Origin: a virus | Strand: one strand, 5' to 3' | Virus record (IMG/VR): IMGVR_UViG_3300049855_000197 | Span: 1 to 36,983 of that record | DNA length: 36,983 nt | Shown here: in pieces, positions 12,763 to 16,580 of the stretch | Layout of the letters: each line of letters begins with the position of its first letter | Position numbering within the stretch: position 1 is the stretch's first letter | Made by a program: the position numbers and the translations under genes | The notes under the pieces: generated by a model | What the model saw: the letters and a program-made list of their open reading frames with translations, nothing else | Databases searched by the model: none | Told to the model about the DNA's origin: nothing

Positions 12763-12920
12763 TCTCGCTTCCCTTTCTATTGAAAAGTTGAATGGTTAAG
12801 AGTGAGAGCAGAAGCTGAGTAGTCCGGACGGCAATCAGGATAATGCTTGGCTTCCGAATCTGGCCCCAGGCTAGACCTGGCAGTAGGATTCACCGGGGCC
12901 TAAATGGCCCCTTTCTTTTT
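12763..12920 (+). ncRNA. Candidate phage small RNA with terminator
   Basis: There is no open frame here. A promoter-like pair (12728-12756) would start a transcript near 12763, and a strong intrinsic terminator ends it at about 12920. Internal pairings visible by eye are GAAGC/GCTTC (12811-12815 with 12850-12854) and CCAGG/CCTGG around 12867-12880, so the RNA of about 158 nt would be well folded. No known RNA family is recognised. It lies between the RHH regulator and the replication operon, where antisense or regulatory RNAs are common in temperate phages. Confidence 0.5.
12895..12920 (+). terminator. Rho-independent terminator of the small RNA
   Basis: GGGGCC (12895-12900), a 5-nt loop and GGCCCC (12906-12911) are followed by a T-rich tract TTTCTTTTT. 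The stem is GC-only and the tail lies on the plus strand, so it terminates rightward transcription. Confidence 0.85.
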
Positions 12921-13137: not shown

Positions 13138-13587
13138 ATGGCTAAAAATTCGTATTCTGAAAAGTTAAAAGACCCGCGCTGGCAAAAAAAACGGCTTGAA
13201 ATATTAAGCCGCGATAATTTTTCTTGCCTAATATGCGGGGATTCCGAATCAACTCTTCACGTTCACCATAGATACTATATCAATGGGCGGGAACCATGGG
13301 ATTATAATGATAATCTTTTAGCAACGCTTTGCGATTCTTGCCACAGTTCTGAGCACAGCCTAGAAGATATATCAAGCGACCTTATTAAAATGTTAAAATG
13401 CTTAGGATTTTTCAATTCTGATATATCTGGGCTTTGCATCTTGTTTCATTGCATGGAAATTAAATATCCTCCTCATGTTTTTATTGCGGCTTTAGATAAA
13501 ATCTTAACCTCAGAAAAAGGCATGAAAGATTTTATGGATGGTTATTTTAAAATTATTGCCATTGAAAACAAAGAAAAGGATAGCTAA
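13138..13587 (+). CDS. HNH endonuclease
   Basis: The product is 149 aa. It has a classic zinc-supported HNH core: CLICG (30-34), LHVHHR (40-45) with the catalytic His pair, the conserved Asn in DYNDNLLATLC (55-65), then CDSCHSSEH (65-73). HNH proteins nick or cut DNA; here the gene opens the replication operon and is coupled to the initiator gene by TAATG. It could be a free-standing homing-type nuclease or one with a role in replication or packaging. Ahead of the core is a basic helix (KDPRWQKKRLEIL). The ATG at 13138 follows GGGAAAAG. Confidence 0.88.
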   Translation: MAKNSYSEKLKDPRWQKKRLEILSRDNFSCLICGDSESTLHVHHRYYINGREPWDYNDNLLATLCDSCHSSEHSLEDISSDLIKMLKCLGFFNSDISGLCILFHCMEIKYPPHVFIAALDKILTSEKGMKDFMDGYFKIIAIENKEKDS

Positions 13588-14363
13588 TGGCTAAGAGATT
13601 CACGGATTCGGATAAATGGAAAAAACAGTGGTTTAGATGCCTTCCTCCTACCTGGAAATGTTTCTGGATTTATGTTTGCGACAACTGCGACCACGCCGGA
13701 ATATGGGATGTTGATTTAGACCTTGCGTCTTTCCAAATAGGAGCAAAGCTAGAATCTTCCAAAGTTTCCGAAATTCTAGGTAAACAAATTCTTGAAATCT
13801 CCAACGGGAAAAAGTGGTTTATTATCGATTTTATAGACTTCCAATATGGAGAGCTCAAGTCAAATAATAACGCTCATGCTTCGGTAATAAACATTCTTAC
13901 CCGTTTTGGATTGTGGGATTTTTATGTTAACCGCAATAATTTAGCCCCTTGTGAGCCCCTCAATAGCCCCTTGGTAGGGGCCCTGGATATGGATATGGAT
14001 AAAGAAATGGATAAGGATATGAAGGGGGATGCAAGGGGGAAACAAAAAATATTTGAGCGTATAGATGTTTGGTTTGAGAATCTAGAATTTACAATGGCCT
14101 GGGATGCATGGGAGGAAATGCGGAAAGCGTCAAAATCTAAACCAACAGAATACGCCAAGAACCTGGCTTTTACCAAGCTCAAGGGCTTGGCAGGTGATGA
14201 CCTGGGATTGGCTATCCAAATCGTTAACGCGGCTACCGAATCGAACTGGAAAACATTTTATCAACTCAAAGGGAACCAAAATGGAAAAACGTGTGAATCA
14301 GGAACCGACACACATAGACATAAAAAAAGATCTGGAGAGTTTTCTGAAAGCCTCTCCCTTTGA
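13587..14363 (+). CDS. Replication initiator (replisome organiser-like)
   Basis: The product is 258 aa. The N-terminal part (MAKRFTDSDKWKKQWFRCLP, then CDNCDHAGIWDVDLDLASFQ) matches phage initiators whose winged-helix domain binds the origin. The C-terminal part (AWDAWEEMRKASKSKPTEYA, then LAIQIVNAATESNWKTFY) resembles the end of lambda O-type proteins, which contacts the helicase loader. Between them, around residues 118-156, the DNA contains 11-bp-phased repeats (see the origin entry), as in lambda, where the origin lies inside gene O. The last 80 bases overlap the loader gene, and the tail they encode is low-complexity. Confidence 0.8.
   Translation: MAKRFTDSDKWKKQWFRCLPPTWKCFWIYVCDNCDHAGIWDVDLDLASFQIGAKLESSKVSEILGKQILEISNGKKWFIIDFIDFQYGELKSNNNAHASVINILTRFGLWDFYVNRNNLAPCEPLNSPLVGALDMDMDKEMDKDMKGDARGKQKIFERIDVWFENLEFTMAWDAWEEMRKASKSKPTEYAKNLAFTKLKGLAGDDLGLAIQIVNAATESNWKTFYQLKGNQNGKTCESGTDTHRHKKRSGEFSESLSL
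13943..14055. other. Candidate replication origin inside the initiator gene
   Basis: AGCCCCT starts at 13943, 13954 and 13965, and the inverted form AGGGGCC at 13976: four elements exactly 11 bp apart. GGATAT/GGATAA units fill 13985-14020. AAGGGGGA then occurs at 14022 and 14033, again 11 bp apart, followed by the AT-rich stretch AAACAAAAAATATTT. Because 11 is not a multiple of three, the copies lie in different frames, so selection on protein cannot explain them. The position, between the two domains of the initiator, matches lambda-type origins. Confidence 0.68.
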
Positions 14364-14991
14364 TCATGAATATGAGAGAAAACGATTAAAACGCTTAGAC
14401 GAGGAAGAAGAAGACAGAAAAAGGCGCGAAGCTAGAGAGTTAGCCAATTTAAAGGAAAGCCTATGGAGAAACTCAAATGTACCGGAAAGGCATAGGAGTT
14501 TCACCCTGCCCGATTCTGGGGCCTGGCTAGAGTCTTTTAAGTTTGTGAGTGGGCAAATGGGTTCCGGGACTCTTTTCCTTGTCCTAGGGCCTCGTGGGAC
14601 GGGTAAAACGCAAATCGCCACCGCATTGATAAAACAAGCTTGCTTTGAGGGTAAAAAATCGAAGTATTACAAGGCAATTGATATTTTTATCGCTTTGAGG
14701 GGGTCTTTTAGGAAAGACGGCGATTCAGAAATTGAGGTAATTGAGAGGTTTTTGAAACCGGATATTTTGGTAATCGATGCAATGGAAGAAAGAGGTGAAA
14801 CCCCATTTGAGGACCGGCTTTTGAATCACATCATTGATAAACGGTATGATAATCTATCCGATACGATTCTAATCACTAACCAAACAGCCGAAAAGTTCGC
14901 TGAATCTGTAGGGCCTTCGATTGTATCGAGAATCCATGAGACGGGTGATAAAATCGTCTGCGATTGGCCAAGCTTTAGGACTAAGAAATAA
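14281..14991 (+). CDS. Helicase loader, DnaC-like AAA+ ATPase
   Basis: The product is 236 aa from ATG 14281, preceded by AAAGGGAACC; it overlaps the initiator gene by 83 nt in another frame. The frame is open further upstream (an ATG lies at 14104), but that start has no better support. The charged N-terminal coiled coil (residues 35-60) would bind the helicase. AAA+ motifs are Walker A GPRGTGKT (103-110), Walker B ILVIDAMEE (162-170, with the second acid present), sensor-1 Asn200 in ILITN, and an arginine finger candidate in SRIHE (Arg217). It would load host DnaB onto the origin with the initiator. Confidence 0.85.
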   Translation: MEKRVNQEPTHIDIKKDLESFLKASPFDHEYERKRLKRLDEEEEDRKRREARELANLKESLWRNSNVPERHRSFTLPDSGAWLESFKFVSGQMGSGTLFLVLGPRGTGKTQIATALIKQACFEGKKSKYYKAIDIFIALRGSFRKDGDSEIEVIERFLKPDILVIDAMEERGETPFEDRLLNHIIDKRYDNLSDTILITNQTAEKFAESVGPSIVSRIHETGDKIVCDWPSFRTKK

Positions 14992-14992
14992 A

Positions 14993-15184
14993 ATGGACCC
15001 ACTACCATACCCACCCTTATTTGCTCCTAAACCGTGCGAATGTGGGTTAATCCCTGAAGTGGTGGAGATGCCAAACTATGGGCCGGATGAGCAATGGCAA
15101 GTCCACTGCAAATGGGGTCACCCTAGGGTATATGGTAGGACGATGTTTGAGGCTATTGAGAAATATAACGAGAGGCGCAAATGA
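14993..15184 (+). CDS. Small zinc protein, Lar-like, 63 aa
   Basis: The ATG at 14993 lies 1 nt after the loader stop. The protein reads MDPLPYPPLFAPKPCECGLI, then a second metal half (WQVHCKWGHP) and AIEKYNERR, giving the C-x-C/C...H and N-x-R ending similar to Lar-type single-domain proteins. It precedes the methyltransferase (overlap of 4 nt, ATGA), so a shared anti-restriction role is plausible. The Cys spacing is unusual (CEC), so the family match is tentative. Confidence 0.6.
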   Translation: MDPLPYPPLFAPKPCECGLIPEVVEMPNYGPDEQWQVHCKWGHPRVYGRTMFEAIEKYNERRK

Positions 15185-15837
15185 TACCTTATTACCAAGA
15201 TGACGCAGTAACGATTTACCATGGAGATTGCCGGGAAATATTGCCGACATTGCAAAAAGTGGATTTAGTGGTTACTGACCCTCCTTATGGGATTGGGGCT
15301 GATAAAAACCTTAGAGCGAACAAGCAACACGGGAAAGCCTGTGCGCCATCTAAAGATTATGGAATTGGAAAATGGGACAATAAAACCCCAGACAAGGAAA
15401 TATTTTTAAATATTATTGCATTATCTAAATTTCAAATAATATGGGGTGGAAATTATTTTTCGTTAAGTCCCTCTCCATGCTGGTTAGTTTGGGATAAAGA
15501 TAATGGAGACAATAATTATGCTGATTGTGAATTAGCTTGGACGAATCTCGAAGCGGCTGTTAGAAAGTTTAGATATAGATGGATGGGAATGCTTCAGGAA
15601 CAAGCGGGAGAAAAAAAAGAAATTCGAGAGCATCCAACACAAAAACCGGTTCCAGTCATGAAATGGGCGATCACATTGGCTCCAGAGTCGAAAACCATCC
15701 TAGACCCATTTATGGGGTCTGGAACAACCTTACGCGCTGCCAAGGATCTAGGCCGTAAAGCCATAGGCATAGAGCTAGAGGAGAAATATTGCGAGATAGC
15801 AGCTAAAAGGATGATGCAGGAGGTTTTAGCTTTATGA
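15181..15837 (+). CDS. DNA methyltransferase (beta-type, amino group of A or C)
   Basis: The product is 218 aa. Motif IV, DPPYG, is at residues 33-37, preceding motif I DPFMGSGTT at 175-183, the order of beta-class enzymes that methylate N6 of adenine or N4 of cytosine. The typical HPTQKP segment lies between them. The variable middle (residues 45-140) would be the target-recognition domain. It lacks a partner endonuclease gene, so it is an orphan enzyme, probably for protection from restriction or for regulation. DPPYG alone does not settle A versus C. It overlaps both neighbours by ATGA. Confidence 0.92.
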   Translation: MIPYYQDDAVTIYHGDCREILPTLQKVDLVVTDPPYGIGADKNLRANKQHGKACAPSKDYGIGKWDNKTPDKEIFLNIIALSKFQIIWGGNYFSLSPSPCWLVWDKDNGDNNYADCELAWTNLEAAVRKFRYRWMGMLQEQAGEKKEIREHPTQKPVPVMKWAITLAPESKTILDPFMGSGTTLRAAKDLGRKAIGIELEEKYCEIAAKRMMQEVLAL

Positions 15838-16353: not shown

Positions 16354-16580
16354 TTTACAGCCCCTCGGATTCTAACCGTGGTCACCCGGTACCAGGTGGG
16401 TCAAACATCCCCAGTTTCAGGCTGGGTTTATTACCGACTGTAAAAATTTCAATTTGACATGGCCGGGCTTGATACCGGCTTATGGGCTTTTACGCAATTC
16501 CCAAGGGCGCCGGTTTCTCCGGAGAGGTTTTCAAAAGGTCCTTCACCCTGCACGTCCTTCCGTGCTGCATGTCAAAATAA
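16354..16580. other. Non-coding structured region between convergent operons
   Basis: No gene is seen in this 227-nt stretch. Several inverted repeats are visible: TTTACAG/CTGTAAA (16354-16360, 16438-16444) and GGTAAT/ATTACC (16349-16354, 16430-16435), which cannot nest together; CCCAG/CTGGG (16410-16414, 16422-16426); and TTTGACATG/CATGTCAAA (16453-16461, 16568-16576) flanking GCCGG/CCGGC and GCACG/CGTGC hairpins. A stem at 16410-16426 followed by TTTA could terminate rightward transcription weakly. It may encode a small RNA. It is not a canonical tRNA. Confidence 0.5.

Follow-up and report, generated by a model that had tools for sequence, protein, structure and literature searches.

Four short DNA elements repeated every 11 bp at 13943-13982 lie inside a phage gene that we assign to a replication initiator. 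They were found in a 36,983-bp window, the whole stretch of viral DNA that was analyzed, which also encodes a P22-like portal and an ERF-type annealing protein. On the sequence comparisons presented below, the elements most probably form the iteron array of a theta-type replication origin situated within the phage's own initiator gene; as candidate sites, they are very probably where the initiator binds to start genome copying. The array is a real, widespread DNA-level feature, and it would represent a variant of in-gene iteron origin not previously known. The features concerned are listed below.

13587-14363, + strand: predicted replication initiator gene, 258 aa (ORF call; N-domain aa 1-109, linker, C-terminal part aa ~146-233)
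13587-13913, + strand: N-terminal domain, predicted winged-helix-like and DNA-binding (AlphaFold2 model)
13943-13949, + strand: candidate iteron 1, AGCCCCT (direct reading and script search)
13954-13960, + strand: candidate iteron 2, AGCCCCT, 11 bp after iteron 1 (direct reading and script search)
13965-13971, + strand: candidate iteron 3, AGCCCCT, 11 bp after iteron 2 (direct reading and script search)
13976-13982, - strand: candidate iteron 4, inverted AGGGGCC with one mismatch, 11 bp after iteron 3
13983-14021, + strand: purine-rich repetitive linker (L)DMDMDKEMDKDM, ~80% purine; candidate unwinding region together with 14041-14070
14022-14042, + strand: probable G5 element variant AAGGGGGATGCAAGGGGGAAA, AAGGGGGTGYGGGGGAAA in relatives (script search; relatives)
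14281-14991, + strand: DnaC-like helicase loader gene (phrog_50, E 1.4e-32; Pfam IstB_IS21, E 3e-16)

The initiator gene and its 11-bp array

The assignment of the gene at 13587-14363 as a replication initiator relies on a weak match of its C-terminal part, and of that part only, to phrog_678 "replication initiation O-like" (E 9.5e-6) and on the overlap of its end with the start of the DnaC-like loader gene. No Pfam family was detected up to an E value of 0.1, nor any NCBIfam match, N-domain included, and a comparison of the whole initiator sequence with 50,697 phage records returned Pseudanabaena phage Pan5 as the only N-domain match. The AlphaFold2 model of the N-domain, obtained with 41 aligned relatives, was confident (pLDDT 89, pTM 0.80), and its elements (H21-33, E39-41, H44-51, H57-64, E68-71, E76-79) follow the winged-helix order. 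Foldseek gave no match to the PDB at E<=0.001; the sub-threshold fold matches were weak and mostly to winged-helix regulators. An HNH gene lies upstream of the initiator gene and a DNA methyltransferase gene (15181-15837) downstream of the loader. We also noticed a perfect G/C hairpin, GGGGCCTAAATGGCCCC, with a T-rich tail at 12895-12911, which is terminator-like and precedes the rightward replication genes.

Direct reading and a script search both bore out the start positions that a preliminary description gave for AGCCCCT (13943, 13954, and 13965). The inverted copy reported at 13976 has the expected position and spacing but is not an exact inverse, as AGGGGCC shares 6 of the 7 letters of AGGGGCT; a last inverted copy just 5' of the linker is common among relatives. 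The layout is that of a 7-bp core with an 11-bp period and mixed orientation. The array spans codons ~119-132, with the N-domain before it and the C-terminal part after it, in agreement with the location first proposed between the two parts of the protein. Apart from the AGCCCCT triple, the 36,983 bp contain no exact, evenly spaced 7-mer triple for any interval of 7 to 30 bp; AGCCCCT recurs singly at 16359 and 19568. The three direct copies fall in three frames (GCC-CCT, CCC-CTC, and AGC-CCC-TTG). Among 100,000 synonymous recodings of the same 51 residues, none contained a lag-11 7-mer triple and 1.0% contained any lag-11 7-mer pair. The view that the repeats are a feature of the DNA and not of the protein was thus upheld.

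Conservation of spacing and turnover of motif among relatives

Of the roughly 95 loci with the N-domain, most carry short repeats 11 bp apart directly after it, followed by a K/D-rich linker. We counted exact 6-mer pairs in the 110 nucleotides after the N-domain of 55 dereplicated relatives and derived the expectation from synonymous codon resampling. This yielded 139 pairs at lag 11, against 4.2 expected, and 85 at lag 22, against 2.75 expected, while lags 8, 10, 13, 14, and 16 were at expectation. Lags 6, 12, 18, and 24 were also in excess, owing to the K/D codons. The density of lag-11 pairs reached 19.8/kb in the array region versus 0.43/kb in the rest of these loci (290 kb). The motif itself differs between relatives (AGCCCCT, TACCCT, AACTGTT, ATCCCC, AGACTAT), neighbors 11 bp apart have the same orientation in 39 cases and opposite orientations in 34, and successive copies occupy each of the three reading frames in turn. 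The position of the array, in the window as in almost every relative, is 330 to 390 bp inside the gene. The gene after the initiator was DnaC-like in 9 and DnaB-like in 8 of 38 relatives. The DNA-level comparison of relatives that had been proposed as a check thus showed phase and place to be kept while motif and protein vary. Because the motif changes, orientation is free, the copies run through all frames, and lag 11 is in excess, we conclude that DNA-level selection is acting on the spacing of the array.

A conserved protein lacking the repeats, which the preliminary description regarded as counterevidence, was found in part, in a single clade (L014 and ~13 other loci). Its 14 examined loci encode the N-domain without a charged linker and showed no array within the stretches searched (L014, L018, L019, L020, L037, L044, L045, L048, L063, L073, L075, L076, L079, and L080), and both features appear to have been lost in this clade. 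The association between charged linker and array (Fisher P of 0.02) was obtained with rules of unequal stringency, strict for the linker and lenient for the array, and we gave it no weight.

Asn94 was present in 18/18 relatives of the AGCCCCT class and differed in nearly all of the 9 relatives of the TACCCTT class, and helix 57-64 of the N-domain likewise separated the motif classes, relatedness being uncontrolled in both comparisons. These two were the places at which the classes diverged most, and it is suggestive, kinship being ignored, that they may be the residues that read the motif. Such natural sets of initiator/iteron pairs could be used to learn how changes in the motif are coupled to changes in the recognition residues.

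Searching with DNA alone, we found AGCCCCT-N4-AGCCCCT-N4-AGGGGCT in 34 IMG/VR viral contigs. Reading of the surrounding ORFs placed 18 of the matches in the linker of genes whose product starts with this type of N-domain. Another 7 belonged to a second initiator family (MRDYSKVSxxFWTGKTGR), where the match was inside the gene or, in one case, just upstream, and one other match (L108) was terminator-like; the remainder were unassigned, so that most matches fell at initiator genes. The same pattern gave no match in 296 sampled genomes of one bacterial phylum. The palindromic pair AGCCCCT-N4-AGGGGCT occurred once each in a 6-Mb and a 4.6-Mb bacterial genome, both times at an initiator locus.

The second family, annotated "DNA replication protein O" (MRDYxKVSPxFWxGxTG), resembles the window in having the AGGGGCT motif 11 bp apart, and its N-domain has no detectable similarity to that of the window (hhalign probability, 1.3%). 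Five isolate phages carry it (L249-L253: Acinetobacter A3926.3, Escherichia PhiR5_2, Fraca, CharmingMan, and Klebsiella ST974-OXA48phi18.2). In these five, AGGGGCT pairs 11 bp apart are located at codons ~61/65, inside the N-domain coding region, and most have another pair at ~146-154, before a QEQEQE linker; the initiator gene is followed by a DnaC-like or primase/helicase gene. The first pair encodes a conserved EGASKGL, so the protein may contribute to its conservation.

A candidate origin, its alternatives and known systems

From the array, its lattice, the conservation of phase and place, the turnover of motif, the predicted fold and the gene context, all established here, we infer steps of binding, melting, and helicase loading. 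The winged-helix N-domain would bind one short (~7-bp) element per helical turn. With elements 11 bp apart, successive protomers would be aligned along almost one face of the helix, packed laterally against each other. That orientation is free while spacing is kept suggests that contacts between protomers, or wrapping, outweigh the polarity of the elements. The initiator complex would then melt the adjacent A+T-rich, purine-asymmetric linker DNA, from 13983 to ~14070, and the C-terminal part of the initiator, together with the DnaC-like loader from the next gene, would bring in the helicase. Phase and place in relatives and the loader gene thus speak for the replication origin first proposed at the repeats, at which binding and origin function are predicted steps. 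GC skew, suggested as an origin test, tracks gene strand in the window and was uninformative.

The linker DNA has several of the properties expected of such a region. The purine share is 80 to 85% at 13991-14050, and relatives' linkers average 79% purine on one strand versus 56 to 59% in the flanking domains. The linker has a dG/bp of -1.155, against a window mean of -1.358, and is also less stable than the array. The A/T-rich stretch noted after the repeats is indeed of moderately low stability, falling within the less stable 4% of the window. The least stable 40 bp of the initiator gene lie elsewhere, in the N-domain and outside the linker. GGATAT/GGATAA units, between the iteron array and the region of the AAGGGGGA pair discussed below, encode a D-M-D-K codon linker; the period of the GGATAT units is one of protein codons, at 6/12 bp, rather than 11 bp.

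That period bears on the idea that the repeats are a by-product of a repetitive proline-rich or charged protein linker, since the stretch that follows the array, DMDMDKEMDKD, is a protein-level repeat, and the excess at lags 6, 12, 18, and 24 described above points the same way. Eleven is not a multiple of 3, however, the copies run through all three frames, and protein-preserving synonymous resampling removes the lag-11 signal; this origin of the repeats is refuted, and we regard its probability as negligible. The array might instead be an operator for the control of expression by the initiator or by some other regulator. Initiators often regulate themselves, and in viral contig L114 the array is just upstream of the initiator start codon; nevertheless, in the window and nearly all relatives it is tied to the linker, deep inside the gene and not at the promoter, and no promoter-like excess was found in the array region, which leaves an operator improbable. 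Less probable still is a role of the array at the mRNA level, where AGCCCCTTNNAAGGGGCT can pair and the resulting hairpin would serve as an attenuator or pause site. The window RNA at 13935-14050 does fold slightly better than shuffled sequences (z = -2.0), and the terminator-like contig match mentioned above would fit, but several relatives (e.g., L056 and L088) have only same-orientation copies, so that no local hairpin is possible, and a hairpin does not require an exact 11-bp spacing.

The origin inside the initiator gene can be compared with three known systems. In phage lambda, ori lies in gene O (PMC7466680, PMC5043065), and the window resembles lambda ori with O and P in that its candidate origin falls midway within the initiator gene, with the loader gene adjoining (PMC5043065, PMC7466680). 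Both show several initiator-binding repeats, binding being predicted in the window, and then an A+T-rich region whose purines lie mainly on one strand; this region is purine-asymmetric in lambda (PMC5043065), and the purine share and moderately low stability reported above agree with it. Two iterons plus the A+T-rich region are the minimal unwinding unit of lambda (PMC7466680). In contrast, lambda has four 19-bp near-perfect inverted repeats, each binding an O dimer, whereas the window has a 7-bp core per 11 bp in either orientation and lacks near-perfect inverted-repeat iterons of 18 to 19 bp. Detected likeness to lambda O is confined to the weak O-like PHROG match of the C-terminal part, and the loader at 14281-14991 beside the initiator is DnaC-like. 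"Lambda-like," as the site was first called, thus fits the layout but not the iterons.

In the RepA_N plasmid pSK41, four Rep boxes lie centrally in rep and are bound by the N-terminal winged-helix domain; the central segment serves as a linker, and a C-terminal domain makes host contacts (PMC5703833). The window shares the central array and the linker segment, and its N-domain model is winged-helix-like with predicted binding; it differs in having no RepA_N domain by Pfam (E up to 0.1), in its G+C-rich one-turn elements and in being a phage, not a plasmid. The protein of pSK41 can do without its origin-encoded linker (PMC5703833), a fact that explains how an initiator gene can carry an origin. 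Rep_3-type iteron plasmids also have arrays in helix phase (PMC5043065), a general trait of iteron origins that the window array shares, with the initiator as the presumed binder. Rep_3-type iterons are mostly direct repeats about two turns apart, against one turn, mixed orientation and a location inside the gene here; pSK639 has 22-bp repeats in an array upstream of rep (PMC5703833). Since both the 19-bp inverted-repeat iterons of lambda and the RepA_N domain are absent, the best reading is that the candidate origin of the window would operate in the manner of lambda ori or pSK41 ori but belongs to neither class.

The origins of most uncultivated phages are unknown, and the layout seen here offers a rule readable from sequence: one short element for each turn of the helix, in any orientation, between a DNA-binding domain and a purine-rich initiator linker. 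The rule narrows the place of an origin down to a few dozen bases.

A probable G-run companion element

The preliminary description placed AAGGGGGA repeats 11 bp apart at 14022 and 14033 and counted them among the 11-bp-phased repeats of the site. The positions are correct, and this is one of only two lag-11 8-mer pairs in the window; the pair is off the first lattice (14023-13976 = 47 bp, 3 bp out of register). We consider it probable that the pair represents, in variant form, an element of its own that is widespread, the G5 element AAGGGGGTGYGGGGGAAA. That it represents two more degenerate inverted iterons is rather unlikely: AAGGGGG does resemble the inverted AAGGGGC, the spacing is also 11 bp, and the pair can pair with iterons 1 and 2 in RNA, but besides the register, relatives with other iteron motifs have GGGGG-N3-GGGGGAAA at the same place with 8-bp spacing, the trailing GGGGGAAA being common to both. 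Seven relatives carry a double G5 tract, mostly arranged as GGGGGTGYGGGGGAAA, in the corresponding part of the gene, either behind the linker or close to it; altogether, G5-N2..8-G5 was found in 8/96 loci (window included) versus 0.27 expected.

A scan for AAGGGGGTGYGGGGGAAA retrieved 107 viral stretches. After dereplication, 63 same-strand ORFs contained the element; their matches covered many replication-initiation and primosomal families of PHROG, and the Pfam families DUF1376, DUF7833, DUF6291, and Lin1244_N. In 17 more stretches, the element was on the strand opposite the longer ORF, and many of these were again replication initiators. Its occurrence in different frames and in both orientations points to DNA-level selection on the G5 element. 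A reversed-pattern control, weak because the reversed pattern is nearly its own mirror image, gave 45 matches, of which 39 were the same loci and 6 were new, and background is mixed in among the matches listed for the wider pattern GGGGGTNNGGGGGAAA. In literature outside subscription journals, nothing relevant was found on the G5 string or on 11-bp phage iterons.

We tentatively envisage a two-part origin, in which a fast-changing, initiator-specific 11-bp lattice would be combined with a constant G-run module shared by unrelated initiators. The module would act in a host-general step (helicase or primase entry) or as a folded G-run structure. If confirmed, the G5 element would be an origin part shared across unrelated phage initiators, and it may be more novel than the iteron array. 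The loci with the element are the window (14022-14042, a probable variant), L006, L087, L090, L091, L095, L098, and L136-L242; there, AAGGGGGTGYGGGGGAAA follows repetitive linkers behind N-terminal families that are unrelated to each other, its orientation being either one and its frame one of several, and some sites are non-coding.
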